Source: Bodo saltans (lineage: Eukaryota > Euglenozoa > Kinetoplastea > Eubodonida > Bodonidae). From it: a DNA stretch of 36,876 nt. The position numbers and the translations under genes are program-made. The notes beneath the pieces were generated by a model. It did not search any database. It saw nothing but the letters and a program-made list of their open reading frames with translations, and was not told the origin of the DNA. This document shows, piece after piece, positions 622 through 30,343 of the stretch; positions within the stretch are counted from its first letter, which is position 1; every line of letters starts with the position of its first letter. Location of the stretch: contig CYKH01001274.1 of assembly GCA_001460835.1 (NCBI GenBank), positions 43,984-80,859 on the forward strand. Reading direction: 5' to 3'.

Positions 622-689
622 GGGAAGTGTGTTTGAACTTCATTGTTGTCTTGCTTCTAGCCGCTATTTCTTCTTAAAGATCGCTGGGA

Positions 690-737
690 TTCTTATTCCT
701 CGTTCTCTGTATTCTCTTTTTTTAAAAAAAATCGCAG
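690..737 (+). promoter_or_regulatory. Likely spliced-leader acceptor for CDC45
   Basis: A T/C-rich tract at 690-723 is followed by an A run and the first AG at 736-737. This leaves a 56-nt 5' UTR before the ATG at 794. It also argues that the open frame upstream of 794, which overlaps the previous gene, is not translated. Confidence 0.6.
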
Positions 738-793
738 AAAAGGACTCTTTCTCCCCTCTAAAGGCCACACAAGGCAATAATCAACTATCAAAT

Positions 794-9800: not shown

Positions 9801-10184
9801 GCAATACGGCTGGCGAACCCGGAGGCCCTTCAGTTGGTCGCGGCACCCCTCGTGGTGCCATGGCACATCAATACAGCCAGCAACGAAGATCAAGTACGCA
9901 GATATCAAACGTATCACGCGGTAGTGTGCGATGAGGGCAGCACTACTGCACCAGCGGCGGCACTGAACACAAGCAGCAGTAAACTGCAAACCTCTGCGCT
10001 TGGCATCGACGCCCCCTTCACATCAACGCGGTCTCCTTCTCGGAGTCCTCGACATCACTCAGGAAGGGACGCAACATCGCCTCGCTCGACGACAAGTTCA
10101 GCGCAGCAATTATCTGCCACGGCGAAGAAGGTGTTCCTCTACGATCCGACTCAGTGGTGCCCGATGTACCTCATGTTTGTGTAA
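6861..10184 (+). CDS. CCCH zinc-finger, WWE-like protein with a C-terminal PARP-like domain
   Basis: The protein has 1,107 residues. A CCCH zinc finger lies at residues 46-65 (Cys46, Cys55, Cys61, His65; spacing 8-5-3), normally an RNA-binding module. Residues about 155-235 resemble a WWE domain, which binds (ADP-ribose) units: an FDSEW block, then YTIEF, then a GSRRPIQR end. A second, weaker copy of the WWE C-terminal half may lie at about 283-320. The last 250 residues resemble a PARP catalytic domain: LQIQRVQHHAFYSRYL matches its first helix, ALFRYIPRSW sits where LFHGT is expected, PYLLLVVVAF fits the core strand, and FLYDPTQWCPMYLMFV matches the final strand of mono-ARTs. The catalytic His is replaced by Arg and no YGxGxYF block was found, so activity is unlikely. 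The order recalls vertebrate PARP12/PARP13 (ZAP). The middle is low-complexity, with a probable frame displacement at about 8370-8570. Coding status is sure; the PARP call is tentative. Confidence 0.72.
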   Translation: MHSFGKHPSGSPSPAPAPPSVASSGASTAQSLLFRKVVASKRGELCMHFVSPSGCALGPLCPYRHAGAQRTATAATFLDGDHSSSQSEILSEMKSREDTEEGVDITTTVAALHPSSLLSSSSKRFSAPPQVPSVQPLHMTISPLYSQPLCAHARGLVLWFFAELPAVTNSAKPPRWTAFDSEWTSFLEQAYLKMLKEHQYHRNMPATEFKEYTIEFARLYMCRTSDKGSRRPIQRALITASPTWVLEELDAPRQPKHHHAEDESHGDGPVSEVIDPVASSCLEYHYVHGGKDLLTIDVNRWKLRINLLTMVGREVREKRRSMFQGIGDLKDRFRTAASVVVNSGRFGGRPISPDEIVSPTTPSQRSAFTGSGSGSIIGGGMSRNIIHRPSVTGPRPPTNRSGSTAATTPAAKNRSTSLVGDVPAKRFQLRRLPITVRHGCPPSDPFDTSALQVRLTVVAKGTNKPIQTVIGPRPVRGDEGDHRFVFPVALDLNELTAATLPDVACDALGQCHWESGHHLWTHAHRCPAGRSSNCFLCSWTSSSVSQHAVKSGRSPSTQSSGHHVVEGHRDGSHSPYPQPSASTRGELHVTLDALAERSEVHRQLMSHEGAPIGSAFDAARSAAVSGVQAATGPWRRHQAVSRWFRSEWDGGRTLSVSTGPATNLLSSGLLSVSAQMGGVATPHSVAAASVKSPTSIELHHVKTGATSHEVLQLLSLMQRNAHPGGVVPTVASRRRSIGGASLLADGGDGWTTHPTSMGQSLTSSAFGTPAPVSPMMRASPNEETVDGVPSPNLFRQSVQQLEKQHALAVEQCYAARSIRHILVKQTSEGDRDGPAASHTAVDASSEGSGSNADETDLTVALHGLQIQRVQHHAFYSRYLRSRTEMFTEWHDSDAESAESSREEALFRYIPRSWLRSILYQEEDQRGSPPEGVDDTGSDDMLRSWNQQRMHFYRDLEAAGAEQRVPGVPYLLLVVVAFPGAAIRLANPEALQLVAAPLVVPWHINTASNEDQVRRYQTYHAVVCDEGSTTAPAAALNTSSSKLQTSALGIDAPFTSTRSPSRSPRHHSGRDATSPRSTTSSAQQLSATAKKVFLYDPTQWCPMYLMFV

Positions 10185-13559: not shown

Positions 13560-16121
13560 ATGACCTCAACCTCATCGCCCACCCCCGCGTCTCGACCATC
13601 GACCCTTCTTGGGTTGGTGTCCGTTGCCGCACTGCTTCTCGTCGCGGCTCATGCCTCCACCATCACATCCATCACACCGAACACCGGCTCTCTCAACGGG
13701 TGGACTCGTGTCTCCATCCTTGGAACCGGCTTCGACATTCGTGGTCGATCTAACCTCGTGTACATCGGCTCAGGTATGGCTGGCGTCTACTGCGACCCTA
13801 TTCCGAACGAGTGTACCACCACGCGCATCGTTTGCTTGACCCCTGAGTATGCCGGCGTCGGTCCTATGCCCGTCACCGTGAACAGTTTCGGATACAACGC
13901 CATCTGCCAAGTTGCGGCCGGCTGCAACTACCAGTTCACGATCCAAAAGACACCAACCGTCACTCTTATCTCACCCCAGTGGTTGATTGCGCCAGCAAAC
14001 ATCACCGTGTACGGCACCAGGTTCTCCCAGGGTGACGCCAGCGTTGCTGCGTTCGACTTTACCATGTGGATCGGAGATGAGGAGCGCTGCAACCTTGTCA
14101 GCACGATCACCGGTTCTAGCTTCATCTGCAACGTGGTCAACATGCGCCCTGGTCTTCTCCCCACCACCGTGATCTTGGGCGCATCCGGCAAAGCGAACAT
14201 CGCCAGCCTCGTGAGCACCGTCGCGGTCCTTCCGTCGATCAGCGCCGTGACTCCATCCGTTGGCAGCCTCGCTGGTGGCCAGACCGTCACGATCTACGGC
14301 ACGAGCTTCAGCCCCGATGTGTCGAGCAACTACGTCACAATTCACGGAGCCCCTTGCATCGTGGACTACTACGGAACGCTTTACATCACGTGCAAGACGA
14401 CCCCTGTTGCCGCCGCAACCACCAGTGCCTCTCGCATTGTCTCACCGAACGTCTCGTCCACAGTGGACGCGTACTACAACCTGCCTGCCGGTTACGACCT
14501 CGACTTGTACTTCGTAGGCACGATTCAGTACCTCAGCCCCGACTCCACGGCAGTCACGAGCAACTTCAACACGTACATCGGCGCCATTAGCTGCGAGCAG
14601 TGCGGCTTCCGTGTCACGTCACAGTTTGTCCCCACCTTTACAGGAAACCACACATTCAGCCTCAACGGTGACGATTGGTTTGAGATGTGGCTATCAGACT
14701 CCTCCGAGCCGGTTGTTCGTGCACGTGGCGTGACCGCCACCGGCAGCACCCGTGCTCTAGACGTCGACGGCTTCAACCCCCGCCGTATCATTTCATACCA
14801 AGGTTGCTGCACGTACATCAGCAGTGCCCCGCAGTATCTTGTGGCTGGGAAAACGTACTGGCTCCGTATGTTCGTGAAGAACGGTTACGGTGCCCTCGGC
14901 CTCACTGGTCGCGTTTCCTTCAACAACTTGACCAATGTCCCGTTGGAGACGATGTTGTACAACTCCGCCGACTACGTGAGCCCCGTGCAGGTTCTCGTCA
15001 ACGATATGCAAGCACTTCCTCAGAAATCGTGCTTGAACTTCTCGTCCTGCGATTACAACTTCGTTGCGTCCGCGACGCCCACCGTCACCGGAGTGAGCCC
15101 GACGTCCATCGGTCCCCAGCAGTCCCTCACCATTACTGGAACAGGCTTCGACACCAGCACCACCAATCCCGGCACCAGTACTGCATGTGCCGTGGCAACG
15201 TTATGCGGAGGTGGTGGTTGCGCATGCGCCACCCAAGCTCTCTGTGGATTGCACACGTCCTTGTGCTCGTGGAGCGGATCTGCGTGCGTGTACCGCTACA
15301 ACCCTCCCCAGTGCTTCCAGTGGTCTCTGAACACCGTCACCGTTGGCGGCCAGCCCTGCAACGTGACGAGCCAGACCTCCACCCAGCTCGTGTGCACGAT
15401 GCCTTTTGTGACCGCTGGTAGCAAGCGTGTGATTGTGTCCATTGCGACGACTGGCCAAGCATCAGGTGTCGCTAAGTACGTCAACGTCCTGACTGTTGTC
15501 GACGGCATCTCGCCCTCGTCAGGCAGCATCAATGGCGGCAATGTGCTGTCCATCAACGGCTTCGGTTTCGATCCCGCGTCCACACAAGTGCAAGTCGGCA
15601 ATGCGACGTGCGCGATCGTCAGCGTTGCCTTTGACCTGATCACCTGTATCGTTCCGTCTCTTGGTGCAGAAGGTGCCGCCTCTGTGCGCGTCTTGACCAG
15701 CAACGCCCGAGCCTACATCCTGCCCACTTCGTATCAATATGACGCCAAGCCCGTCCGCCCTGGTACCACCGTCGAGGTCACCGAGTCGTCCATCACCCCC
15801 ATCAACGGCCCTGCCAACGGTGCCACACGTGTGTTCGTAACACTTCCTACTGCGTACAGCATGTCGAGCTCCACCGCCATCTCCGTCGTGATCGGCGGCG
15901 TTCCTTGCGCTGTGCGTGCTGCCGGGTCCAACAGCATTCAATGCTTCACTGGCGTTGCCGCTGCTGCTGGTACATTCCTGTGTTGTCGACGGCATCTCGC
16001 CCTCGTCCGGCAGCATCAATGGCGGCAATGTGCTGTCCATCAACGGCTTCGGTTTCGATCCAGCGTCCACACAAGTGCAAGTCGGCAATGCGACGTGCGC
16101 GATCGTCAGCGTTGCCTTTGA
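13560..16121 (+). CDS. Fibrocystin-like receptor, N-terminal part (true frame to about 15980)
   Basis: The N-terminus has a hydrophobic signal peptide (residues about 15-32, probable cleavage after AHA at 30-32). Several IPT/TIG immunoglobulin-like modules follow, each with a start like ITSITPNTGSLNGW and a later G-x-G/S-F turn (residues about 35-110, 132-210, 225-283). A PA14-like module at about 14466-14920 carries the FTGNHTFSLNGDD motif typical of PA14 carbohydrate- or surface-binding folds. A fourth IPT contains a cysteine-rich insert (about 15180-15310). A fifth and sixth IPT run from 15497 to 15980. All of this belongs outside the cell. After 15980 the sequence restarts a tandem copy of 15494-15980 in another frame, so the last 47 codons before the stop at 16121 are out of frame and not real protein. 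The start at 13560 is the ATG directly before the signal peptide. Confidence 0.9.
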   Translation: MTSTSSPTPASRPSTLLGLVSVAALLLVAAHASTITSITPNTGSLNGWTRVSILGTGFDIRGRSNLVYIGSGMAGVYCDPIPNECTTTRIVCLTPEYAGVGPMPVTVNSFGYNAICQVAAGCNYQFTIQKTPTVTLISPQWLIAPANITVYGTRFSQGDASVAAFDFTMWIGDEERCNLVSTITGSSFICNVVNMRPGLLPTTVILGASGKANIASLVSTVAVLPSISAVTPSVGSLAGGQTVTIYGTSFSPDVSSNYVTIHGAPCIVDYYGTLYITCKTTPVAAATTSASRIVSPNVSSTVDAYYNLPAGYDLDLYFVGTIQYLSPDSTAVTSNFNTYIGAISCEQCGFRVTSQFVPTFTGNHTFSLNGDDWFEMWLSDSSEPVVRARGVTATGSTRALDVDGFNPRRIISYQGCCTYISSAPQYLVAGKTYWLRMFVKNGYGALGLTGRVSFNNLTNVPLETMLYNSADYVSPVQVLVNDMQALPQKSCLNFSSCDYNFVASATPTVTGVSPTSIGPQQSLTITGTGFDTSTTNPGTSTACAVATLCGGGGCACATQALCGLHTSLCSWSGSACVYRYNPPQCFQWSLNTVTVGGQPCNVTSQTSTQLVCTMPFVTAGSKRVIVSIATTGQASGVAKYVNVLTVVDGISPSSGSINGGNVLSINGFGFDPASTQVQVGNATCAIVSVAFDLITCIVPSLGAEGAASVRVLTSNARAYILPTSYQYDAKPVRPGTTVEVTESSITPINGPANGATRVFVTLPTAYSMSSSTAISVVIGGVPCAVRAAGSNSIQCFTGVAAAAGTFLCCRRHLALVRQHQWRQCAVHQRLRFRSSVHTSASRQCDVRDRQRCL

Positions 16122-16467
16122 CCTGATCACCTGTATCGTTCCGTCTCTTGGTGCAGAAGGTGCCGCCTCTGTGCGCGTCTTGACCAGCAACGCCCGAGCC
16201 TACATCCTGCCCACTTCGTATCAGTACGACGCCAAGCCCGTCCGCCCTGGTACCACCGTCGAGGTCACCGAGTCGTCCATCACCCCCATCAACGGCCCTG
16301 CCAACGGTGCCACACGTGTGTTCGTAACACTTCCTACTGCGTACAGCATGTCGAGCTCCACCGCCATCTCCGTCGTGATCGGCGGCGTTCCTTGCGCTGT
16401 GCGTGCTGCCGGGTCCAACAGCATTCAATGCTTCACTGGCGTTGCCGCTGCTGCTGGTACATTCCTG
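15494..16467. repeat. 487-bp direct tandem duplication (15494-15980 and 15981-16467)
   Basis: The two copies match base for base except at four positions. In the reading frame of copy 1 these are Ser TCA/TCC, Pro CCC/CCA, Gln CAA/CAG and Tyr TAT/TAC, all synonymous third positions. The length leaves a remainder of one on division by three, so the second copy is read in another frame and the giant gene is interrupted. Synonymous-only differences mean both copies were under coding selection as they diverged, as two alleles would be. Confidence 0.95.
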
Positions 16468-19400
16468 TCCTACGTGTCGTTTGTCGACAAGTACCGCTGC
16501 TGCTGGTACATTCCTGTCCTACGTGTCGTTTGTCGACAAGTACAATGAAGGCGTCTCCGTGCAGCTGCCGTCCTTCACGTACTATCACACCATCTTGTCC
16601 GTGTCCCCTGCAACTCTCAGTTTGTACGGCGGCGTTGCCTTCTCGTTCCAGTTAAGTGGCGCGTTCAGCACGCAGGAGATCTCCCTGTCACTGGCCGGAG
16701 CTCCTTGCGGCGCCTTCTCCATGAGCGGTACCGTTGGCACGTGCACCACTGGCCCCCGCGCCACGCTAGGAGCACGTACGATCCTCCAGGACTTCAATTT
16801 CCTCGGCGATGGCAATGCACTGACAAACCCTTTGAACTTTGTTCAAACGTCCAGTGGCGTGACAGTGAACGATATCGGAGATGCCTATGTCCCTGCTGGC
16901 GACTACATCATGTCCAAGAAATCTTTCAGCCGCCCCTTTTCCCTGCGCGTCCTTCTTCAACCAACCCTGCCCATGGTGCAGTTCAGCTCTCTTGACCGCT
17001 CGATTGTGCTCCGTGCTGGCGTCTCCCAGCCTACCCTGTCCACCGATGGCATCCGCGCCATTGCTGGTGCCCCCAACGCCTCCTTCCAACTGATTGGCTC
17101 GACAACCACCACCGGTGCCACCACCATCAACCCGACGTATGCCAACGCTGCCTTCAGCACATCGACGTTCCAAGAGCATCGCCTTGAGATGTACAACACA
17201 CAAGTGTTGTACTACGTGAACAACGTTTTGATCTACTCTGTTGCAGACAGCGGCTTTCCCAGCGGTACGGTCGGCATCGGCTTCAATGCTCAAGGTGTCA
17301 CTGTACGAAGCTTCACCGTGGAGTCCCTTGCACCAGAACTGCTAAGTCTGAACATCTCTGGCTCCCCCGTAAATGTTCAAACGGATGTGTTCTTCACCTC
17401 GACTGGTCTCCCCAGCGCCACAGGAGCTACTGTGGATGCCACCACAGGCATTCTGACCCTTAGCGGCGCCACGAACTTCGACTCCACCACGAAGCTGATG
17501 GTGACAGGCTCGGACGGCACAATCAACGCGTCATCGGTTGCCCTGTGCCCCACACTTTACACCACCATGAACCCCGTGACCGGCGCACTGACGTACCGAT
17601 GCGTGCCACGTCTCGGTGCTGGAACCTACAACATTGTTCCAAGCAGCGCAACCCTCGGTGGTTCTGGCTCCCCTATTCAAGTGACTGTCGCGTTGATTGT
17701 GACCAGCGTCACCCCAAGCTCCATCCCCCTGGGTGGCGGCCGCGTTACGATCGTCGGTGCTGGCTTCTGGGGAGATATTAGCGTCCTCTTGGGTTCATCT
17801 GCTGCGACCATCGCTTCGTTCAACTCTTCGATGATCATCGCCGACATGACCAGCGTCACCCCAAGCTCCATCCCCCTGGGTGGCGGCCGCGTTACGATCG
17901 TCGGTGCTGGCTTCTGGGGAGATATTAGCGTCCTCTTGGGTTCATCTGCTGCGACCATCGCTTCGTTCAACTCTTCGATGATCATCGCCGACATTCCGGC
18001 ATCGAGCACCAGCGGCACTGTTTCGCTGATTGTTCGCGATGCCTCCGGCGCCAATGTGCAGTCCATTTCTCTCACCATCACGACCCTCTCGCCCTTTAAC
18101 ATCACTGGCATTTCATCCCAATCCGCAACCCTCTGGTCCACTGTCACCATCACTGGCACCGGTTTCAGCACCGGCGTCCTTGTGTACGTGGGCGGGAACA
18201 TCGCAATCCTGTCTACCGTCTCGGCATCAAGGGTTGTCTTCCAAATCCGCAGCACCACCGCAAATATGTTCGGCAACACCACCATCAAGATCGTGCAGCC
18301 TGGCGTCGGCATCGCCACGTCGTCCATCAACATTATTCCGTATGTGTACAGCACAGGCCTCACCCCGCATAACGTCTCCTCTCTTGGTGGCGCAGTCGTG
18401 ACGATCCCTGGTGTGTCCTTCCTCAACATTGCCCTCGGTACACCCACAGCAACGGTGACGTCCAACTTTGTCACTGGAGGCGTGTCGAGCTGGACCGTGA
18501 CCCCCGCCGTGCAGAACGCCCCGGCCCCACAGACAACTTGCGGCGTGCCTTACTTCGGACCATTCAATGGCATCTCCGTGTTGTCCCGCTCATACGGTGG
18601 TCTTGCCGCGCATGAGTACGTGCGCGTCGTCGCCCGCCTCGCAGTCCCTTACGACTGGTCGTTGCCAGTCCTGATCGTAGAGGGGCGCGCGTCCTCTGCC
18701 ATCACAACCATCTGCGACTTCAGCTCCACTGGATGTGCCTACCCGTGCATTGCGGAGCTCGCCGTGATTGTACGCCACAGTGCGACCACCCTGTCCGTGT
18801 CGGTGCAAGGCGACGTCAACCCTATCGGCGTCTCCTCCGTCACCGTGGACACCTACCAAGACATTGGCTACTACGCGAACATCAGCGGCGCCATCGCCCC
18901 CATTGATCGTGCAGACCGACTGGGTGCGACATTCACAGTGCCTGCTAACACGCCGGTTGCCGAAGATCAAGTCATCACGCTTATTGCTGGTGGTGCCAAC
19001 TACTGCCTGTACAACCTGTGCAAGTTGACCGTCGTCGCCCCACCCACCGTGCAGTACGCCACTGTGGTGGATATTCATAGCGCAAGCACCGCCCCGCATT
19101 TTGTGGCCGACGGCACTGCCAACGTTAGCTACCGTGCAGGCGGCACGTCGCTGAGTGACGCTGTTGCTATTGATCACGTCAGCACGCAGCGCATCTACGC
19201 GGCCGACGGCCCGGTGATTCGTGTTTCTGCAACCGTCAATGCCCTTCCAGTATCGACCAATGTTTCCTGGCTGACACTCACCAACCAAAAGTTCCTCACC
19301 GAGTTTGGTTTGTACACCAGCAGCAACGGCCGTGTCAACGCTCTCGCCTACAACCGCTACGTCTACACCGGCTCCGTTCTCAAAATTGGCGACGTGATCT

Positions 19401-22400
19401 CCTTCGAGTACGACACCCGCACCAGCACCGCATCGTACCTGTACAACGGCATCCGCTTCGCATCCACCTACCAGAAGGTGTTCTGGCCCCTCGCGCTCGT
19501 CTACCAAGGCCCACAGCCTCTGGTCAACGTCACCGTCTGGGGGACAAACCTGCCGACTGAGCAGCGCATTGTGTTGTACGGCACGAACCTCACTCAACAA
19601 GGCATGAACACGGAAGACTCGAATGTTGCAACATACATCAACGGCACCCGATGCCGCTCCACCTTTGTGACCAACGGCCAGATCAGCTGCTACATTGCCA
19701 AGGGCACGTACCATGCTGGCGACCTCCTCAATGTCACATTCTCCACTCCTCTTGGAAGTGGCTCGAATGTTGTTCTTCTCCTCCGACCATACCTCACGTC
19801 TGTTGACGCCTCGTCTGGCGGCTCCACCGGAGGCCTCCGTGTGACTCTTGTTGGCGGCCCAGTGGCCAACGGCTCATCGTCCGTGTCCATTTGCTCTGAC
19901 AGCACCGTTCGTGCTGGTGCACAGGCAGCTTCTGTCGCCTGCACCACCAGCGCCACCAGCGCCTCGTCCGTCGTTGTGACGCTTACAACGAACGGAGCGA
20001 CGTCGTTTGTCACGAGCAGCACGTCGCTCGTTGCCTCGACGCCAGCTGTTGTCGATGCTTCCCAACTTACCTTCGCGGTTGTCACCGGCCCAGTTCTTAG
20101 CGCTGTGACTCTTGGCGGAGCGTCGTTGGGCATTGACGGTACCGATATCCCCACGGATGCCACCGTCGTGCTCTCCTCCGGCACGTGCAATATTACAACA
20201 ATCAACAGCACTCGTATCAACTGCGACCTCGTTGGTGTTGCCCCTGGCCTCCAATCAGTCAACATTTACTCACCCACGATCGGCGCCGCTGCCACCAGCC
20301 TCCCGTTCACTGTATCCTTGACGCTTGTCTCTGCTACCCCCAGCTCTCTCGGCGTCGGCGGCTTCGTCGAGCTCGACCTGTTGGGCTCCGGCTTCGGTGC
20401 CGACGGTGATGGCTTGGACGTCGCTGTCACCATCAACAACGCGTCGATCTGCGTGTCTATTTACCGCATGGACTCGGTCCTCATCTGCACCACCGCCCCT
20501 GGCGAGTTGAATGGCAACGTTGTTGTCACGGTTGCTTCCGCTTCTGATGTCTGGTCTGTCACCAGCAGCTTCATCGTCGCCACGAACAGTGCCCTTGCGA
20601 TCCCAACAGTGACCGCCGTCTCCCCCGCTTCAGGCCTTGGCGCACAGACGTTGACCATCACCGGTACACTCTTATCGGCGGTCAACTACGTCGTCCTCGG
20701 TACCTCCCTCCCATGCGCGATTGTCTCTCAGACCTCGACCTCGCTCGTCTGCAGCATCGCCACTGGCTTCCCCGCTGGCCACTACATCGTCCGTGCCATC
20801 GACCCTAGCGTTGGCGCTTCTGTGAACACTGTTGCCTACAATGCCTTGCTTGACATGACATCCGTCGCACCCGGCCAAGGCCCCAAGGTTGGCGGTCAGC
20901 TGGTCACGATCTTCGGCACGGGCTTCAGCGCCACCGGCCACTCGGTTCTGCTCGGTGGCAACCCTTGCTCCGTCGCCAGCGCTACCACCACCTACTTGAC
21001 CTGCTACAGCTCTGCCCTCAACAACGACTTCACCACAGACTACGATGTGACCATCAACGTTGCGGACGACACCAACACGGAGGTCGATGCAACGTCCCAG
21101 TACACCTACACTGCTGCCCTCACTGCGGTGGTGTCGTCTGTCAGCCCAACGGAACTGAGTGCCGGTGGCCAGGAGCTGCTCACCATCAGCGGCTCCAACT
21201 TTGGCACTGACATTTCGTCTGTGTCCGTGAAGATTGGCAATTCAAGCTGCATCGTGCAGAGCCTCACCAACACCACCATCCAGTGCCGCACGACGCCAAC
21301 GTCACCCGTCAACGACGCACTTGTGTCGGTGACCATCGGTGATTCCGGTGCTGCCGCGTCTACCTCAACTGTCTCTCTCAAGTTTGCCATCACCTCGATT
21401 GTTGGCACCTCGGTGTTCAGCGTGGAGGGCGGCGCCGTTCTCACTCTTGCCGGTGAGGGTTTCTGGACCTTCAACGCCGGAGACTGGCAAGCCTCGTACT
21501 ACAACGTGACGCTTGACGGTTGGCTCGTCTGCAACATTCTTACCAGCTCGTGGGCCCAGCTCACCTGCCTGCTACCTCCCAGCCCCCGTGCCCTGACCAA
21601 GACACCGCCCCTTTCCAGCAGCTACATCATGCGCCCTGAGGCGACGATGGCCATTACGCTGCAGGGCAACTCGATTATTGCGACTGTTGCCGACGGCGTC
21701 GTGGTGCAGTACTCCCTGTCTGTCACCCCCACCATCACCAACGTGACCCTTAATAGTGCTACGACTGCCAAATATGGCAGTGTTGTCACCATCACTGGCA
21801 CATCCTTTGCATCGTCTGGCAACATCGTGACAGTGAACAACGCTTCCTGCTTCGTGCAATCCCAGAGCGCCACTTCCATTACTTGCGTTATGACTGCTGG
21901 CAACTACGGCCCCGGCTTTGTGCAAGTGACAGTTCCCGGCGTTGGTCTTGCCGCCACTGTTCGCACCTGCCCCAACGGCGGATTCCTGAATTGCAACGGT
22001 CAATGTCTCACCGATGACATGTGCCGCTACGACGCGTGGGGTGATGATACGTGCAGCGATCTTGCGATTGTGACCGTTGGCGACACCTTCTGTAACGCCA
22101 ACGGTGGTGCAGACTCGACCGACACGCCCTTCCTCACCGATGCAGGTGTTGTGTTTGACCTGAACTGCCCCATGTACAGTTGCGAAGGCAATGATTGCAA
22201 TTCCTCACTCTCCATTGGAGGGCACGGTGCGATCATCAGCTCCTGCGGTTCGGACCCCAACGGTTTCTTGATTGACTTCCGCGCTGAAGTCACGGCCATT
22301 ACTGGTGGAGTTGCGTCTAGCCTAGGTGGCGGCCTGAGCCTTACCATTTCTGGTAACTATCTCCCCGGCATCACGGCTGCGACGGTTCTCTTCGGTGGCG

Positions 22401-25400
22401 TGAACTGCGCCATCATCAGTGCCAACGGGAATGAAATTGTCTGCGTCACTGGCGCGTCGACCAATGGAACTGCCCTTAGCGTTGCGGTCTATGGGGGTGG
22501 CTACCTCGCCCAGTGCGCTGACGCGATCTGCAGCGGACTCTACAGCTACGACAACACGATTACTCCCACTATCAGCACCGGGACGTACACTGCGAGCAGC
22601 ACCTACCCGACAGTGACCCTCTCGGGAATGAACTTCCCTACCTCCTCCTCAGGTTTGTCGGTGTGGATCGGAACCACATCATGCCCCGTGTTTACCACCT
22701 CTGCCACTGAGGTTGTCTGCAACGCGTCTTTTGCCCTCGGCGCTGGATCCCAGTCGCTCGTTGTGAGCGTTGCAAGCGCCGGTTACGCCGTGGGTGCCTC
22801 CGCCGTTACGATTCCCCTCACCATCTTCTCCTACTCGCCCATCAACGGCAGTATGGCAGGTGGTACGATCTTGACGCTGTACGCAAGCGGTCTCACGAAC
22901 GTCTCCACTCTCACCGTTGGTGCTTGTGCTGCGACGATCACATCGCTCAACACTGCCACTGGTGTTCTTATTGCAACGACGGCTGCTTGTGGCAGCGCCT
23001 CCAACGCTGCTGTCGTCGTCAAGACTGGCTCAGTGACCACGACCGCCACGCAACGCTTCGCCCAGACCAGCACCTTCACGCCCACAGTCACCGGCACTGT
23101 GACGAATAACATTTTCACTCTGACCCTTGGCAACCTCGGCACGACATCTGCTGGAGCGATTTCCATCTTCGTGGACCAGTTGACCGCCAACTGCATTGTC
23201 TCAAGCTTCAACCTTCCCACCGTCTCTTGCGAGATGGAGGGCGGATACACTGCCGGCAGCTACAACCTGACGGTTTACGTCGCCCCTCGTGGTTACGCCA
23301 GTCGCACTGTCGCTACCCTTGTGGCCTCCTACGCCCTGTCGGTGACGTCTCTCAGCGCTAGCACTGGTCTGCGTGGCGGCAACCAAGCTCTCACCATCGG
23401 TGGTTCTGGGTTCGGCACCAACACCGCCAGCGTCTCCGTCAAGATTGGCAACGCCACTTGCACGGTCACCTCCGTCACTGCCACCTCGATTGGGTGCAAC
23501 ACTGGCTTCGCTGCTGCTGGCACCTACAACGTGGTGGTCAGCGTCCAGGCCGCCAATGCCGTGTCTTACCCCACTCCCGCGTCCTTCGCAAGCTTCACGT
23601 ATCAATCCGCATCACCGACCGTCACTTCTGTCTACCCCACCCGCGGCTCTACTGCTGGTGGTACGCTTCTCACTATCATGGGTACTGGGCTTACCAGTGC
23701 CTTCACTGTGAATGTCGCAGGACAGGTCTGCACTCAGTCTAGCGCTGAGCAAGTCGCGACGGCTGCCTCCGGTGGCGCAACACTCTACTGCACCACCGCT
23801 GCATACCAACCGATGTACAGCCCAGTCGCCATCCGTGTTATCCCCTCTGGTGGCCTTGGAGACGCCTTTAACGACGGCACCGTGACATACCAGTACATCG
23901 ACCTCTGGAGCCGCTGGACGACGTGGGGCAACTCACCCCCGCCTCAGTTCGGTGACAGCGCTGTGGTGAGCGAGGGGGATGTGGTCATGGTGGACTACTC
24001 CCCTCCACGCTTCTTCTTGATTATTGTCATGGGCACGATGCTGTTTGACGACACCACTGACATCACCGTCGAGTGCACGTACATCATGATCAACTACGGT
24101 CGGCTGATTGTCGGAACACCAGAGAAGCCCTACACGCACCACGCCGTGATCCGACTCTGGGGTGATCGTCTCACACCGGAGATCCCAGTTCACGGCTCTA
24201 AGGTCGTTGCCCTTCGACACGGCTCTATTGACATGCACGGCGTGAAGCGTCAACCCACGTGGACCCGCGTTGCAACCACCGCATATCAAGGCACCACGAC
24301 GATCTACGTCAACGGACCAGTGGATTGGCAAATTGGCGAGTTCATCGTCATTGCGCCCACTGACTTCGACCCCATGGAGGGCGAAACTCGCATGATCACC
24401 GGCGTCATCAACGGCGACACCGCCAACGTGACGCTTGTCCTGGAGGCCCCCCTCGACTACACTCACTGGGGTGTTCGTCAGTGCTTCGATGGTAATAATC
24501 TCTGCGTCGATGAAATCGCTGAAGTTGGCCTCCTTACTCGCAACATTGTTGTGGAGGGCGAGCCCAACTCACAGAATATTGGCTTTGCTGGAACTATGTT
24601 CCTCATGCCACTCGGACAAGATGCCTCGGCCTACTGCCGCCTCTCCTTCATTGAAGTTCGCAACGTTGGTCAGCAGTACATTGTTGGTCGCTACCCTGTC
24701 CACTTCCACGTGACCGGCGAGTCCTCCAACAGCTACGTCAACGGAACCTCCGTCCACGACTCCCTCAACCGTGCCTTCTCGATTCACGGTACCAGCAACA
24801 ACACCTACGTGGACAACGTCGCGTTCAACATCGCTGGCCACGCGTTTTTCATTGAGGACGGTAGCGAGCGCTACAACGTCATCAACCACAACCTCGTCAT
24901 CCAAGTCCTTGCCACGACATCTAACCTCAACACCGACATTACCCCCGCTGCCATCTGGGTGACTGCACCCATGAACTACATTGACAACAACGCAGTGTCC
25001 GGCAGTCAAACCTTCGGTATTTGGATCATGCCTTTCTCCCCATCGAGCACTGGCCCCACGTTCAACCTCTCCATCTGCCCGTACGGTCAGGCTCTCGGTA
25101 GCATGGACAACAACACTGCACACAGCAACTTGTGGCACGGCTTCCACGTCTTCCAGGTGTGGACTCCGTTCAAGAGGGAGTGCAGCAGCAGCAGCGGCGC
25201 CGCCCCTGCTGTCATCCGCAACTTCGTTGCCTACAAGAATCAGATTTGGGGTGCCGCCATGGGTAACTTGGAGATCGGTCGCGTTGGTGCCGTTGTCATG
25301 GACAACTTAACCTCCGCAGACAACGGCTTCCAAAACGCCGACGGTGCGTCGTTCTGGATCGAGCACATGCAGAACTTACCAAACATGTCCTGCGGTCTCC

Positions 25401-28400
25401 AGAACTCCCTGTTGATTGCACGAACCAACAACAACCCATACACTCGCAGCGCCTCCCGTCGTGGCGTCAACCTTCCTCAGGATGACAACTTCTTCGTGGA
25501 GAATGTGACGTTTGTCAACTTCGATCAAGAGAACTACGGTTTTGAGCCACAAGCGTGGGCACACTTCCGCTCCCTCTGCTTCCCCTATGGTTGGGAAGTC
25601 ATGATGCGTGGACTGCGATGGGTGAACAGCCCCAACCGTATCCTTTTCCGCTTCCAGCATCACGGTATTCTGAACGACGTCGACGGCACTCTTAGCGGCA
25701 CGGCTGGAGCCCAAGTGGTCCCGTACTCATTGATCAACAACGCACCCCAGTGCTCAAGCATCGGTTCGTTCTCTCCCATGTACCCTGGTCTCGTGTGCCC
25801 GAACAGCTACAAGATCCGTCGATTCGGTGTGTCGAGCAGCAATACCCCACAACTTGATCAGATCTGGCGCATTGACGGCCGCACGGAGCTCAACTACGCC
25901 ATTGACCGCGCCTACGTCTTCACCGCTCCCATAAACAAGGTGATTAACATCACATTCCAGACCACAGCAACACCCGATTGGTGGTGGAAGTGGGGAGGCG
26001 TGGCGTTCATGCAGCCCGGTGAAAAGGCACTGTTTGTGACAAAGTACCTTCAGTTCCCGTATCGCGCTGCGGTTGCCTTCAACGGCCTCGCCACCAACAC
26101 CACCTACTGGGGACGTGTGCCTCAGATCACCGACAATGTGAGTTCGTACGCATTCGACAACATCAGTGGCAACATCTCTGCGCTGCTGGTCTACCCAATC
26201 ACCGGCTTTACGGCAACGTCCAACCAGTGCCCCACGTGGGGCTGCGCAGTGGAAGTGGTCACGCAGACGTGGGAGAAGAAATGTTTCCACATCACCGACG
26301 CCAGCGGCTGGGGCACAAGCTCCGCCCCCTCGTCGACCACCGCAGCCGTTGTTCCCGCTGGTGTTCACTTCTGCCTGGGCTACAACGCAACCGTCGCCGC
26401 AGCATCCGAGCGCTTCATGGAGGAGCAGTCTGTCCCTCGCACGTGCACTGCCGCCAACCAAGTCACCACGTACAACTTCCAATCCCTCACTGTGTTTGGT
26501 GCCATCAGCTTGACGAACGCAAACTGCCCTTGCCAGGGCGGAAGCATTGTGATTAACATCGCAAAGTTCATCTACATCGTTGGCGGTGGGTTCCTCCTCG
26601 GAAACGAGACGCTACCCATCACTGACTGCACGGTGACGATTAACATGCTGCAAGTGGTGTGGACCGCGGCAGACCTGTCGACGTACCGCAACGGTATTTA
26701 TGGTTACCGTGCGTTGACGCTTGAGGCCGGACTTTTGAGCCTTCACGGAAACAAGCCCGAGCCGATCTTCGCACGCCTCTCCGCCACCGCCGCTGCAGGT
26801 TCTCGCACTCTTGTGTTGGAGTCTGCAGTCCAGTGGAGCGTTGGTGACACAATCGCCATCGCAGGAACCAACCGAGCTCAGAAGTACGCGACCCAGAGCA
26901 CCCGCATCGAACAGTCCGAGTATAACTACATCACTGCCATCTCCGCTGACAAGAAGACCCTCACCCTGCAGAATGCTCTCGCCTACTCTCACTACGGAGC
27001 AGGGCAACAGACCCTCAACGGCATCAGTTACAGCATCGGTGCCGAGGTGGCCGTTCTTTCCCGCACCATCACCATCGCTGGTGATACCGCCATTGCTGCG
27101 GTACCTCAGTACAACGCTGGTTGGAAGATGAACATTGGTTGCACTCCTCAGAACCGCGATGGATGCCAGCCCACTCAAGTCATGAGCGCGACACGTTGGG
27201 GTTTGGCCCAAGTCGAGGGTGTATTCATGAAGGACATTGGTCAGGGTAGCATGGACGACGGTGCCATCAACCTCGACGGCTTGACAGACGGCGTGAACAA
27301 CGCCAAGCTCAGCTACTTCCGCAACAACGCCTTCTGGAAGGCGTACAACACCCCTATCTTTGTGCGTGACACCACCACCGGCATCGAGATCTCCGGCAAC
27401 GTTGCCTATGACCTGTGGAACGACGGTATCAACGTCGCGTCTGCTGGCAACAACATCACCAGCAATTTGATGATCCGCATGATCAACACCGACCCTCTCT
27501 GCGAGCCAGCCGCTTACAACATCTTCTGGTCTTGCCGTAATGGTATGTACCGTATTCACGCTGGCAACACTGTCCAGAACAACATCGCTGCGTCCACCAT
27601 GACCGCTGGTTTCGTCACCGAAGGCGAGTTCTGCACCACATCTTCCAGCACCTGGAGCAACAACGTGGTCCACTCTGCCCGCGATGGTGTCCTGGTCGCC
27701 GACGCTCCAGCTGAGGGTACTTGGGGCTGGAGCACGTACTCCAGCCCAACGGACTGCCGCACCATTAGCGGTATTTTGTCCTACTGGAGCGCCGATCACG
27801 GTATTGTTGGCTGGGGCCCAACTGGCAACGTGACGGTGCAGAACTTTGTGTCCGTTGACGACCAGATCGGCACCTTTATCATGACGACCCAGAGCGGTCA
27901 GTTCCAAACGTACATCCCTGAGGTGAACTACTACAACATCACCTACTCCAACCGCTGGAACAACAACGACTTCAGCTGCCGCAGCAACTTCCTCGCCGTC
28001 CCCCAACCTTGCCGCAGCACCACCTTCAACACGAAGTTCTGGTGCGAATTCTTCACGAGTACGACCCAGGCAATGTTGGTCGGCAATGTGGGTGCGATGG
28101 AGACCATCTTCGCCTCCACCGCCCTGTCCATCGGCCCCACTCATGGTGAGCACAAGAACATGTGGGAAGAGCTCGACCAGTACTCTACCGTCGGAGGCCA
28201 CGCCACGTATCGCGACATTCACTTCGCCAACTACGACGGTATGACAACGTGCGGCTACCGCAACCTCGCCTTCTTCCAGAGCAGCCTGAGCAACGACACG
28301 TTCCATCAGCACACGTTCGCACGTGTGTCGTGGTCTAACGTCGCTGCAGACGGTAAAGTTTTCTTCTGGCGCACGTACGGCATCGTCAGCGCATGGCCCA

Positions 28401-30343
28401 CCGACATCCGCACCACAACCTACTGGCTCGACTTCAACAACTACATCCATGGCGCGTACTGGCCGGATAGCCCGAACAAGCAGCTGATCAACGATATCGA
28501 TGGCACCTTCACCCAGACCGGTTCTCGCTCCTCCATTGTTGCCTCCGAAACGCTCACGCGCACCTCGACGTTTGATCAGATCGGGTACGACGGCTTAGCG
28601 TTCACTGGTGGCAAGCTTGCCCAAGCTCGCACCGGATGCACGTGGCAGACCAACATGAACGGTTACATTTGTGACAGCACCTACAAGTGGCTTTCCCTCA
28701 ACCTGGACAGCCTCGCCGATGACCAGCTGACACGCCGCGCCGGACCTATCGTCATCTGCAAGGGTGACGGTATGGTGGCGGCCAACGGCGATCCGAACTG
28801 CCCTGGAGGTGCGATCGACTTTACCTCCGGGCCAGTCATGAAGGGCAAGACGCAACGCTCGACGCTTGACCGTCTGAGCCGCTGGCGTATGTGGGCAGAG
28901 GATGGCGGTAACTACACACTTGCCTTCCGCGGCTCGCCTCCCTCGTGGATCCGTCTGCAACTGCAAGACTACGAATACCTCGGCCAAGGCCAGAATGTTG
29001 GCATCAATATCAACCTACGCTACTTCGGACTCAACGCTAACAGTCGCGTCGGTGTGTACATCAACGGCAAGCGCATTACTTCCAACATCGGCTTTGCAGA
29101 TCCATGGAACATGGTTCCCGCCCAGCAATGGCCCAACAGCAGCGCCCCCGCAGGCACCCACTTCATGAACCTCGTGACGTACGGATCCGGAGTCAACATC
29201 AGCAAGAAGAATATCCTTTATCTGACCATCCGTCCGGGTGTGCTGATTGACCTCATTCAAGAGCCGGTGATTCAAGTAAACATGCAAGTGGCCATGACAA
29301 TTGATCAATTCTTTGATAAGAAGGACACCTTTGTCGCTGCCATGGCGTCCGTCCTTGGCATCGATGCTAGCCGTATCAAGATCACGAGCATCGTGGCTGG
29401 CACCACCCGTCGCCGTACCGGCAGCAGCGTGCAGGTCGGTTTTGAGATTGAGCAAGACCCCAACACCCTCACCACTCCCACCGACACCACCGGCAACTCT
29501 GTTGGTGGCGGTGTGCCAAGCACCAACACAGAGCTGACCAATCTTGTCTCGACACTCGACGTCCTCACCACGAACCCCAACGTGATTGCTCAGGCCGCCA
29601 ACGACCCCTCCATGGCTGTCTCCGGCGTCACTGCACAATCGATCAGCGTGACGAACTCGCGTCCTGCAGTCACGGTTGCCTCGGGCACGCCGTACCTCTC
29701 CCTTAATGTGACGACCCCCACAGGTGTGAACGACTTTAACGGAACAGAAGTGGCAAACTTGATCGCCAACTGGGTGGCGACGAACTTCAGCAGTGTCGGC
29801 AGCCCGTACAACACCACCGTCGCTGACGGCACCTTGGCTATCGGTAACATCTGGACGAACTCCACCACGAACGTGACGCAGTTCACCATCATGTTTACCT
29901 ACGACAACAACACCTACGGCTACGCAGCACTGAGGAACTTAGAGTACCAGTTCCTGCACGACTCCAACGCTGTACTCCCAGCGTACGGGGTGCAGGGGAT
30001 GGAGTTCGCCTCGAACAACTACGTCCCGGATACCGCCACGACCGCTCCAGGACCCTCACCGCCCGCTGCACTTACCGGCAGCGTCGAGAATATCACCAAG
30101 TTCGCCATCGGTATCGGCATCGGTGTCGCCATCGTGATGGTCATCGGTGGTGCTGGCTTGTACCACTTCCTCATTGTCCAGCCCAAACTGAAGCTGAAGA
30201 ATTTGGAAGAGGAGAAGGTGAAGCTACGAGAATTGATCGGCACCAAGAAGAAGAGCCCCAACGGAGGCCCCGGCCCCGCTGGGCACGTGAACAACTCTGG
30301 GGAGACGATGGTGATGTTCCCCCGTGCCGATGAAACGGCATAA
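16403..30343 (+). CDS. Fibrocystin-like receptor, main part (true frame from about 16495)
   Basis: The first 30 codons read duplicated sequence out of frame; authentic protein starts near 16495. There are about 17 more IPT/TIG modules up to about 23900. They are interrupted by a LamG/lectin-like module (about 16786-17326), a SPRY-like module (about 19160-19560, with GDVISFEYD and LYNGIRF) and a cysteine-rich LNR-like module (about 21961-22230, ending DLNCPMYSCEGNDC). A G8 domain follows (about 23901-24165), then a right-handed beta-helix region (about 24530-25720), a linker domain, a second divergent G8 (about 26460-26690) and a second beta-helix (about 27050-28330). The segment 28870-29450 matches the membrane-proximal part of PKHD1 proteins (MTIDQFFDKKDTF, then LGIDASRIKI and a TRRRTG turn). 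One transmembrane helix lies at 30101-30178, followed by a basic cytoplasmic tail of about 54 residues. N-glycosylation sequons are abundant. Likely surface adhesion or ligand binding. Confidence 0.92.
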   Translation: MLPGPTAFNASLALPLLLVHSCPTCRLSTSTAAAGTFLSYVSFVDKYNEGVSVQLPSFTYYHTILSVSPATLSLYGGVAFSFQLSGAFSTQEISLSLAGAPCGAFSMSGTVGTCTTGPRATLGARTILQDFNFLGDGNALTNPLNFVQTSSGVTVNDIGDAYVPAGDYIMSKKSFSRPFSLRVLLQPTLPMVQFSSLDRSIVLRAGVSQPTLSTDGIRAIAGAPNASFQLIGSTTTTGATTINPTYANAAFSTSTFQEHRLEMYNTQVLYYVNNVLIYSVADSGFPSGTVGIGFNAQGVTVRSFTVESLAPELLSLNISGSPVNVQTDVFFTSTGLPSATGATVDATTGILTLSGATNFDSTTKLMVTGSDGTINASSVALCPTLYTTMNPVTGALTYRCVPRLGAGTYNIVPSSATLGGSGSPIQVTVALIVTSVTPSSIPLGGGRVTIVGAGFWGDISVLLGSSAATIASFNSSMIIADMTSVTPSSIPLGGGRVTIVGAGFWGDISVLLGSSAATIASFNSSMIIADIPASSTSGTVSLIVRDASGANVQSISLTITTLSPFNITGISSQSATLWSTVTITGTGFSTGVLVYVGGNIAILSTVSASRVVFQIRSTTANMFGNTTIKIVQPGVGIATSSINIIPYVYSTGLTPHNVSSLGGAVVTIPGVSFLNIALGTPTATVTSNFVTGGVSSWTVTPAVQNAPAPQTTCGVPYFGPFNGISVLSRSYGGLAAHEYVRVVARLAVPYDWSLPVLIVEGRASSAITTICDFSSTGCAYPCIAELAVIVRHSATTLSVSVQGDVNPIGVSSVTVDTYQDIGYYANISGAIAPIDRADRLGATFTVPANTPVAEDQVITLIAGGANYCLYNLCKLTVVAPPTVQYATVVDIHSASTAPHFVADGTANVSYRAGGTSLSDAVAIDHVSTQRIYAADGPVIRVSATVNALPVSTNVSWLTLTNQKFLTEFGLYTSSNGRVNALAYNRYVYTGSVLKIGDVISFEYDTRTSTASYLYNGIRFASTYQKVFWPLALVYQGPQPLVNVTVWGTNLPTEQRIVLYGTNLTQQGMNTEDSNVATYINGTRCRSTFVTNGQISCYIAKGTYHAGDLLNVTFSTPLGSGSNVVLLLRPYLTSVDASSGGSTGGLRVTLVGGPVANGSSSVSICSDSTVRAGAQAASVACTTSATSASSVVVTLTTNGATSFVTSSTSLVASTPAVVDASQLTFAVVTGPVLSAVTLGGASLGIDGTDIPTDATVVLSSGTCNITTINSTRINCDLVGVAPGLQSVNIYSPTIGAAATSLPFTVSLTLVSATPSSLGVGGFVELDLLGSGFGADGDGLDVAVTINNASICVSIYRMDSVLICTTAPGELNGNVVVTVASASDVWSVTSSFIVATNSALAIPTVTAVSPASGLGAQTLTITGTLLSAVNYVVLGTSLPCAIVSQTSTSLVCSIATGFPAGHYIVRAIDPSVGASVNTVAYNALLDMTSVAPGQGPKVGGQLVTIFGTGFSATGHSVLLGGNPCSVASATTTYLTCYSSALNNDFTTDYDVTINVADDTNTEVDATSQYTYTAALTAVVSSVSPTELSAGGQELLTISGSNFGTDISSVSVKIGNSSCIVQSLTNTTIQCRTTPTSPVNDALVSVTIGDSGAAASTSTVSLKFAITSIVGTSVFSVEGGAVLTLAGEGFWTFNAGDWQASYYNVTLDGWLVCNILTSSWAQLTCLLPPSPRALTKTPPLSSSYIMRPEATMAITLQGNSIIATVADGVVVQYSLSVTPTITNVTLNSATTAKYGSVVTITGTSFASSGNIVTVNNASCFVQSQSATSITCVMTAGNYGPGFVQVTVPGVGLAATVRTCPNGGFLNCNGQCLTDDMCRYDAWGDDTCSDLAIVTVGDTFCNANGGADSTDTPFLTDAGVVFDLNCPMYSCEGNDCNSSLSIGGHGAIISSCGSDPNGFLIDFRAEVTAITGGVASSLGGGLSLTISGNYLPGITAATVLFGGVNCAIISANGNEIVCVTGASTNGTALSVAVYGGGYLAQCADAICSGLYSYDNTITPTISTGTYTASSTYPTVTLSGMNFPTSSSGLSVWIGTTSCPVFTTSATEVVCNASFALGAGSQSLVVSVASAGYAVGASAVTIPLTIFSYSPINGSMAGGTILTLYASGLTNVSTLTVGACAATITSLNTATGVLIATTAACGSASNAAVVVKTGSVTTTATQRFAQTSTFTPTVTGTVTNNIFTLTLGNLGTTSAGAISIFVDQLTANCIVSSFNLPTVSCEMEGGYTAGSYNLTVYVAPRGYASRTVATLVASYALSVTSLSASTGLRGGNQALTIGGSGFGTNTASVSVKIGNATCTVTSVTATSIGCNTGFAAAGTYNVVVSVQAANAVSYPTPASFASFTYQSASPTVTSVYPTRGSTAGGTLLTIMGTGLTSAFTVNVAGQVCTQSSAEQVATAASGGATLYCTTAAYQPMYSPVAIRVIPSGGLGDAFNDGTVTYQYIDLWSRWTTWGNSPPPQFGDSAVVSEGDVVMVDYSPPRFFLIIVMGTMLFDDTTDITVECTYIMINYGRLIVGTPEKPYTHHAVIRLWGDRLTPEIPVHGSKVVALRHGSIDMHGVKRQPTWTRVATTAYQGTTTIYVNGPVDWQIGEFIVIAPTDFDPMEGETRMITGVINGDTANVTLVLEAPLDYTHWGVRQCFDGNNLCVDEIAEVGLLTRNIVVEGEPNSQNIGFAGTMFLMPLGQDASAYCRLSFIEVRNVGQQYIVGRYPVHFHVTGESSNSYVNGTSVHDSLNRAFSIHGTSNNTYVDNVAFNIAGHAFFIEDGSERYNVINHNLVIQVLATTSNLNTDITPAAIWVTAPMNYIDNNAVSGSQTFGIWIMPFSPSSTGPTFNLSICPYGQALGSMDNNTAHSNLWHGFHVFQVWTPFKRECSSSSGAAPAVIRNFVAYKNQIWGAAMGNLEIGRVGAVVMDNLTSADNGFQNADGASFWIEHMQNLPNMSCGLQNSLLIARTNNNPYTRSASRRGVNLPQDDNFFVENVTFVNFDQENYGFEPQAWAHFRSLCFPYGWEVMMRGLRWVNSPNRILFRFQHHGILNDVDGTLSGTAGAQVVPYSLINNAPQCSSIGSFSPMYPGLVCPNSYKIRRFGVSSSNTPQLDQIWRIDGRTELNYAIDRAYVFTAPINKVINITFQTTATPDWWWKWGGVAFMQPGEKALFVTKYLQFPYRAAVAFNGLATNTTYWGRVPQITDNVSSYAFDNISGNISALLVYPITGFTATSNQCPTWGCAVEVVTQTWEKKCFHITDASGWGTSSAPSSTTAAVVPAGVHFCLGYNATVAAASERFMEEQSVPRTCTAANQVTTYNFQSLTVFGAISLTNANCPCQGGSIVINIAKFIYIVGGGFLLGNETLPITDCTVTINMLQVVWTAADLSTYRNGIYGYRALTLEAGLLSLHGNKPEPIFARLSATAAAGSRTLVLESAVQWSVGDTIAIAGTNRAQKYATQSTRIEQSEYNYITAISADKKTLTLQNALAYSHYGAGQQTLNGISYSIGAEVAVLSRTITIAGDTAIAAVPQYNAGWKMNIGCTPQNRDGCQPTQVMSATRWGLAQVEGVFMKDIGQGSMDDGAINLDGLTDGVNNAKLSYFRNNAFWKAYNTPIFVRDTTTGIEISGNVAYDLWNDGINVASAGNNITSNLMIRMINTDPLCEPAAYNIFWSCRNGMYRIHAGNTVQNNIAASTMTAGFVTEGEFCTTSSSTWSNNVVHSARDGVLVADAPAEGTWGWSTYSSPTDCRTISGILSYWSADHGIVGWGPTGNVTVQNFVSVDDQIGTFIMTTQSGQFQTYIPEVNYYNITYSNRWNNNDFSCRSNFLAVPQPCRSTTFNTKFWCEFFTSTTQAMLVGNVGAMETIFASTALSIGPTHGEHKNMWEELDQYSTVGGHATYRDIHFANYDGMTTCGYRNLAFFQSSLSNDTFHQHTFARVSWSNVAADGKVFFWRTYGIVSAWPTDIRTTTYWLDFNNYIHGAYWPDSPNKQLINDIDGTFTQTGSRSSIVASETLTRTSTFDQIGYDGLAFTGGKLAQARTGCTWQTNMNGYICDSTYKWLSLNLDSLADDQLTRRAGPIVICKGDGMVAANGDPNCPGGAIDFTSGPVMKGKTQRSTLDRLSRWRMWAEDGGNYTLAFRGSPPSWIRLQLQDYEYLGQGQNVGININLRYFGLNANSRVGVYINGKRITSNIGFADPWNMVPAQQWPNSSAPAGTHFMNLVTYGSGVNISKKNILYLTIRPGVLIDLIQEPVIQVNMQVAMTIDQFFDKKDTFVAAMASVLGIDASRIKITSIVAGTTRRRTGSSVQVGFEIEQDPNTLTTPTDTTGNSVGGGVPSTNTELTNLVSTLDVLTTNPNVIAQAANDPSMAVSGVTAQSISVTNSRPAVTVASGTPYLSLNVTTPTGVNDFNGTEVANLIANWVATNFSSVGSPYNTTVADGTLAIGNIWTNSTTNVTQFTIMFTYDNNTYGYAALRNLEYQFLHDSNAVLPAYGVQGMEFASNNYVPDTATTAPGPSPPAALTGSVENITKFAIGIGIGVAIVMVIGGAGLYHFLIVQPKLKLKNLEEEKVKLRELIGTKKKSPNGGPGPAGHVNNSGETMVMFPRADETA
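16446..16543. repeat. 49-bp perfect direct tandem duplication (16446-16494 and 16495-16543)
   Basis: The two 49-bp units are identical and overlap the end of the second 487-bp copy. The unit also shifts the frame by one. Only with both duplications collapsed (536 bp in total) does the upstream frame continue into the downstream one. Confidence 0.95.
17701..17994. repeat. 147-bp perfect in-frame tandem duplication (17701-17847 and 17848-17994)
   Basis: Two identical 147-bp units encode the same 49 residues twice, starting TSVTPSSIPLGGG and ending SSMIIAD. This is only about the first half of an IPT module. The frame is kept. The absence of any synonymous change marks it as very recent or as an assembly error. 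Confidence 0.95.

Follow-up and report, generated by a model that had tools for sequence, protein, structure and literature searches.

Fibrocystin and fibrocystin-L have been studied chiefly in vertebrates, in connection with kidney and hearing, and their mechanism is unclear. Is there a protein of this kind in a kinetoplastid, and what could it do for a single-celled flagellate? The question is raised by a 36,876-nucleotide stretch of the Bodo saltans assembly GCA_001460835.1 (contig CYKH01001274.1, positions 43,984 to 80,859; hereafter the window), in which positions 13560-30343 hold a giant gene that an initial annotation, made from the sequence alone, described as a complete fibrocystin/PKHD1L1-like receptor. 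Overall, the best explanation of our data, which we consider probable but far from assured, is that the gene encodes a kinetoplastid single-pass surface glycoprotein of the PKHD1/PKHD1L1 family, about 5,400 residues long, that acts through a coat or adhesion mechanism. All coordinates below are window positions on the forward (+) strand.

Domain organization of the giant protein

The span 13560-30343 does correspond to a giant gene, but not to the single frame that had been assumed. Instead, it consists of two long open reading frames (ORFs): ORF1, the N-terminal part (13560-16121, 853 codons), and ORF2, the main part (16403-30343, 4646 codons in one open frame with GTG at its head). All searches were run on ORF1 and ORF2, or on pieces of them, separately. 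The length of ~5,400 residues for the full protein is our inference across the ORF1/ORF2 break.

The Pfam scan of the full ORF2 returned two stretches each of G8 and CEMIP_beta-hel. The first G8/beta-helix unit (unit 1) follows the last IPT module. Its G8 domain (23921-24274) is a significant match to PF10162, with 95.2 bits on the cut-out piece, and its CEMIP-type beta-helix (24629-25144) scored 146.9 bits against PF24606. Unit 1 also aligned with the TMEM2 structure 8c6i in three colinear pieces (E 9e-38), and it keeps the histidine motif GRYPVHFH (24686-24709), which matches TMEM2 letter for letter. In human PKHD1L1, a deafness-linked variant lies at His2479, which passages of the source equate with TMEM2 His552, a nickel-binding 'histidine finger' (PMC11043200). 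Judging from chain positions, the HxH of GRYPVHFH in unit 1 is probably the same histidine-finger site as TMEM2 His552.

The second unit (unit 2) misses the Pfam cut-offs in both parts, with 19.6 versus 22.9 bits for its G8 domain (26462-26779) and 24.2 versus 27.3 bits for its beta-helix (27182-27625). It is nevertheless present. A profile built from five bacterial proteins only gave 357.9 bits for unit 1 and 85.2 bits for unit 2 (ORF2 residues 3392-3737), compared with at most 2.0 bits for 200 shuffles of the unit-2 region and at most -1.3 for the reversed ORF2. Moreover, hhalign aligned unit 2 with unit 1 and the five bacterial proteins over 375 columns (99.2%, E 2.2e-19). Both annotated units were thus recovered. 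The HxH motif is absent from unit 2, where DDGAINLD stands at about the place of the unit 1 histidine motif. No Pfam family matched the interval between the units (25160-26420) at E ≤ 10.

The IPT/TIG array lies upstream of the two units. Pfam TIG scored 163 bits in ORF1 and 339 bits in ORF2; at E ≤ 1 it recognized 7 and 16 stretches, counting the duplicated copies. A profile built from the giant protein's own modules found 22 stretches below a domain E of 0.01. On 40 shuffled sequences, this profile gave no matches in rounds 1, 2, 4 and 5 and two in the third. Its matches place the first modules at 13662-14438 (ORF1 residues 35-107 and 227-293, with a weak one, E 0.04, in between) and the ORF2 array at 16598-23815 (residues 66-2471, with 16 Pfam stretches). 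Since one module is interrupted by a Cys-rich insert and one module pair is an exact duplication, the original count of about 20 IPT modules is correct. Structures in PDB matched by the TIG parts were mostly plexins and the HGF receptor. NCBIfam returned nothing in ORF1 and only a sub-threshold CoaZ_rpt_PGGG in ORF2 (24.9 versus 30 bits).

Three inserts were observed in the array. Two are long non-IPT segments (16760-17690 and 18470-19600) with a lectin or jelly-roll look by eye and no Pfam match at E ≤ 0.1. The third is the Cys-rich insert (21902-22300, with CPNGGFLNCNG at 21968-22000), which resembles Notch LNR by eye and has no Pfam match at E ≤ 1.

A probable PA14/GLEYA-type lectin-like domain (14604-14906; ORF1 residues ~349-449) occupies the position that PA14 has in fibrocystin. 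The PA14 match had an E of 4e-4 on the cut-out piece with 33 residues aligned, but its 20.5 bits fall short of the cut-off of 24, as do the 20.9 bits for GLEYA (cut-off 26.2), and nothing reached E ≤ 0.001 in a PA14 search across the whole genome, in which one candidate was scored. The annotated PA14 domain has the expected position but remains below threshold. An AlphaFold2 single-sequence model of the region reached a predicted local distance difference test (pLDDT) score of 34.5 and was discarded.

The two ends of the protein were called by hydropathy only. A signal-peptide-like N terminus (13560-13664) contains hydrophobic residues 17-35 with a Kyte-Doolittle mean of 2.06, in agreement with the signal peptide annotated earlier. 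At the other end, the core of the transmembrane helix (30104-30160) is the top Kyte-Doolittle window of ORF2 (mean 2.31). Seven other ORF2 windows reach 1.62-1.87, all below this value, and calling one transmembrane helix is a judgement. The last 60 residues (30161-30340) comprise the helix end and a lysine-rich cytoplasmic tail without cysteine. The tail thus has at most 60 residues, short as annotated.

The PKHD1-type membrane-proximal segment of the initial annotation fared less well. The juxtamembrane segment (29255-29452) lies at the place of the fibrocystin SEA domain and has, by eye, a beta-alpha-beta-beta look with a GSS-V-V motif, but it showed no meaningful Pfam match and none to SEA (best: Plug, E 0.26). 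Its SEA identity is only a hint. The piece 28001-29080 had no Pfam family at E ≤ 10.

Comparison with fibrocystin, PKHD1L1 and CEMIP/TMEM2

According to passages of a 2026 review (PMC13424714), human fibrocystin consists of IPT, PA14 (322-485), further IPTs, G8 (1932), PbH1 repeats, a second G8 (2740), more PbH1 repeats, SEA (3557-3717), a transmembrane helix (3859) and a tail. The giant protein shows the same order of IPT, PA14, IPTs, G8, helix, G8, helix, juxtamembrane segment, transmembrane helix and tail, in which PA14 and SEA are unproven here. The spacing, which we worked out by hand, is also similar: the two G8 starts are ~820 residues apart (the second extrapolated from profile position 26) versus 808 in the human protein, and the distance from the second G8 to the transmembrane helix is ~1240 residues versus 1119. 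The tails differ, since that of fibrocystin is described in the review passages as 192 residues long with a ciliary targeting sequence, whereas the tail here has at most 60 residues and no cysteine.

Human PKHD1L1 is described in the corresponding passages of PMC11043200 as a protein of 4,243 residues with 14 IPTs and a tail of 8 residues. The giant protein shares with it a signal peptide, an IPT array, a TMEM2-like unit straight after the last IPT, the conserved histidine, a single transmembrane helix and a short tail. In contrast, it has about 20 IPTs, ~5,400 residues, a tail of up to 60 residues and the two long inserts without a Pfam match. Both likenesses were drawn from published descriptions of the animal proteins. 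Because of the domain order and spacing, we conclude that the giant protein very probably belongs to the PKHD1/PKHD1L1 (fibrocystin) family, as the initial annotation had proposed.

CEMIP and TMEM2 contain one G8/helix unit and are not known to have an IPT array. Unit 1 resembles them in its G8 domain, its CEMIP-type beta-helix, the GRYPVHFH motif and the alignment to 8c6i mentioned above. However, only 11 residues separate G8 from the helix in unit 1, compared with 176 in the TMEM2 chain, and therefore the giant protein is not of the CEMIP type. Plain CEMIP/TMEM2 membership was ruled out by this gap, the two units and the IPT array.

Relatives in bacteria and in the same genome

The family resemblance could instead have arisen by independent domain shuffling, in which a giant protein with TIG and EGF domains, native to this lineage, acquired bacterial G8/beta-helix units and merely resembles PKHD1L1. 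The genome, searched as a 29.3-Mb assembly of 934 contigs, does hold suitable partners: 13 of the 31 TIG matches listed fall on 11 other contigs, within other giant frames. Eight pieces of such frames, from 7 of the 11 contigs (C353, C318, C78, C138, C388, C633 and C523; ORFs of ~1,700-4,450 codons), contained EGF-type domains in six cases, TIG above the cut-off in two and TIG below it in one; some TIG matches of the genome search were not recovered by hmmscan. These ORFs probably encode giant surface proteins of the same protist. Close bacterial relatives of unit 1 also exist, encoded at 34 loci with up to 41% identity; phmmer matched the products of 31 of these loci to unit 1. The nearest (from Deinococcota and an unclassified bacterium) scored 265-272 bits, compared with 133 for TMEM2 with a slightly different query piece, and unit 1 is colinear with the bacterial proteins over ~420 residues.

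On the other hand, no G8 was found at E ≤ 0.1 in the eight pieces of the other giants. Among the matches listed, the genome contains one G8 and one CEMIP_beta-hel, both at the giant gene, although weak G8/helix copies elsewhere could have been overlooked, as the genome searches did not pick up unit 2 either. The bacterial proteins are also unlike the giant protein: the four closest have ~820-940 residues (stop to stop) with one unit, and all nine that were scanned, of the 34, are single-unit and without TIG. Finally, the giant protein agrees with fibrocystin in the sequence of its domains, in having a second G8 unit, in the distance between the G8 starts and in its IPT-PA14 beginning. We therefore regard independent shuffling as improbable.

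A tree was built from 19 of 34 rows (31 bacterial, the two window units and TMEM2), 15 bacterial rows having been removed by a 380-residue limit. Two of its 16 inner branches were starred, and unit 2, TMEM2 and one bacterial sequence (L017) were flagged for odd make-up. The tree cannot separate transfer from descent.

Several further observations were made on these relatives. The bacterial G8/beta-helix loci belong to Deinococcota, Planctomycetota, Bacteroidota, Acidobacteria and others, and an SLH anchor was present in one of the nine proteins scanned. A scan of the viral collection with ORF2 gave no relative, while a scan with the unit-1/TMEM2 alignment gave six IMG/VR contigs, labelled viral by the collection, with G8/beta-helix relatives. 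Their ORFs have 905-1,071 codons on five contigs and 480 on the sixth, where the ORF runs off the piece.

The frame break

Is the gene intact? The break falls inside a 487-base tandem duplication (15494-16468), whose two copies are 99% identical, and the last 46 codons of ORF1 lie in the second copy in a different frame. A 49-base tandem duplication in two exact copies (16445-16543) lies between the frames of ORF1 and ORF2. These interruptions are what a decayed gene or a chimeric contig might show. However, the 487-base copies differ at four places, and each time the change is synonymous and falls on a third codon position in the frame of ORF1, as between alleles; therefore two alleles of a working gene, joined head to tail by the assembler, are likelier than a dead gene. 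A dead gene was not adopted as the first choice. Moreover, ORF2 is open over 4646 codons and codon bias is uniform along the giant gene. Gene direction is also consistent: outside N stretches, all ORFs of at least 250 codons in the four contig pieces read upstream (C486:4001-43983) run one way, and the eight window ORFs of more than 340 codons that are not antisense inside another share one direction. Taken together, a dead gene or chimeric contig is very unlikely. Inside the TIG array, a 147-base tandem duplication (17700-17994) is present in two exact in-frame copies, as either a genuine repeat or an assembly artefact.

Possible functions and mechanism

Codon usage gave a first indication of function. 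The effective codon number of the giant gene, measured in four pieces, was 41.2-44.7 and even along its length, with G+C at third codon positions (GC3) of 0.70-0.74, compared with 53.2-57.6 in the six window neighbours measured. For reference, trypanothione reductase had 43.4 and one paraflagellar-rod gene 32.9. In addition, ORF1 and ORF2 contain 70 N-x-S/T sequons. The strong codon bias, the sequons and the rod of about 20 IPT modules would thus fit a coat or adhesion protein that is abundant on the surface of the cell or of the flagellum, and the codon bias suits such a protein better than a rare signalling receptor. PKHD1L1 itself has been described as a coat protein of hair-cell stereocilia (PMC6707252).

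We propose the following putative mechanism. The IPT modules and the PA14-like domain would form a long rod standing off the membrane, and both beta-helix units, close to the membrane, would bind carbohydrate. Unit 1, with the TMEM2-type histidine motif, would be catalytic or metal-binding, while unit 2, without the motif, would be structural. The juxtamembrane segment may be cleaved, by which the ectodomain would be shed.

Notwithstanding, several results weigh against this picture. Codon bias is no clean sign of abundance, since the other rod gene (L006) had an effective codon number of 55.0, the giant EGF/TIG frames ranged from 43.7 to 56.2 (for example, 45.2 and 43.7 for two of L047 and 45.7 for one of L049), and some possible non-gene frames were also low at 44.7-45.8, including an antisense frame of L005 with 45.7. 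No result of the analysis shows a flagellar location. PA14 is below its Pfam cut-off and SEA has no Pfam match. The tree pairs unit 1 with TMEM2, with support of 94/73 that is not firm; both window units, among others, were flagged for long branches, and unit 2 has diverged too far to be placed. The frame of the giant gene is broken in the present assembly, which does not support calling the protein complete. We rate the coat or adhesion role at slightly below an even chance, and a flagellar location is more tentative still.

The kept histidine motif raises another possibility, namely that the protein is a surface enzyme whose unit 1 cuts extracellular polysaccharide, as proposed for CEMIP/TMEM2, in the service of feeding on bacteria or matrix, with the IPT rod as a holder. 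The bacterial relatives scoring higher than TMEM2 against unit 1 (272 versus 133 bits, as given above) would be in line with this, and passages of the review cited above call TMEM2 a cell surface hyaluronidase and mention a suggested hyaluronidase-like activity for fibrocystin (PMC13424714). However, one cited paper denies in its title that human TMEM2 is a catalytic hyaluronidase, the passages of the cited papers contain no measured activity of PKHD1L1, and a rod of 5,400 residues would be an odd holder for an enzyme. We consider the surface enzyme unlikely and retain the coat or adhesion protein as the preferred reading. The motif, kept in unit 1 and absent from unit 2, presents a testable division of labour.

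Evolutionary implications

We regard the giant protein as a true addition to the fibrocystin-L kind, from a lineage in which none was expected; with the same domain order found in a kinetoplastid, the family extends to a further deep eukaryotic branch. This suggests that fibrocystin-L-like proteins arose earlier, and occur more widely, than their roles in animals would indicate. The earlier statement that the family occurs in scattered protists fits passages of the 2026 review (PMC13424714), which give putative orthologues in organisms ranging from green algae to vertebrates. Since single-celled members have already been reported, our finding is less surprising than first thought. Among the titles and abstract starts listed from the open-licence PMC literature, we found no fibrocystin-type or G8-domain protein of a kinetoplastid, and an earlier report is possible. 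A term count in passages of a Phytophthora zoospore proteome paper did not return 'fibrocystin'.

We speculate further that a PKHD1L1-type protein could be ancestral to eukaryotes, with the full IPT-PA14-IPT-G8-G8-transmembrane order in place before kinetoplastids and animals split and an abundant flagellar glycocalyx or hair-like coat as its form. The stereocilia and kidney-cilium roles of vertebrates would then be late uses, and the protein would have been lost in kinetoplastid parasites. This scenario is doubtful at present. If the protein does lie on the flagellum, this would support coating of the ciliary surface as an ancient function, and a single-celled flagellate with one listed G8 locus offers a system for tagging or removing the protein.

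Host genome and neighbouring genes

The placement of the locus in a kinetoplastid is supported by the genome itself. The assembly contains a trypanothione reductase (TIGR01423, 854 bits versus an equivalog cut-off of 738), whose match to trypanothione reductase structures is full-length, as well as nine paraflagellar-rod matches on eight contigs. Together with the one-way genes and a leishmanolysin-type gene, these markers identify the host as a kinetoplastid, and the contig does not lie outside Euglenozoa, in accordance with the initial annotation. The host is probably of the free-living bodonid type. The spliced-leader exon pattern AACTAACGCT...CAGTTTCTGTACT gave 0 matches both exactly and with 3 mismatches; the assembly may lack this repeat.

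On the same contig, four of the ten upstream ORFs scanned had a family match. Upstream of the window, these include the leishmanolysin-type gene (Peptidase_M8, 1.2e-72) and one for a glycosyl hydrolase of family 85 (7.6e-86). Two of the neighbours in the window had no PDB match at E ≤ 1e-5. Window neighbours include CDC45 (524-3142, 1.5e-76), a WWE-domain protein (6861-10184, 1e-5) and a CAF1/CNOT7-type deadenylase (34600-35634, best PDB E 1.9e-87).

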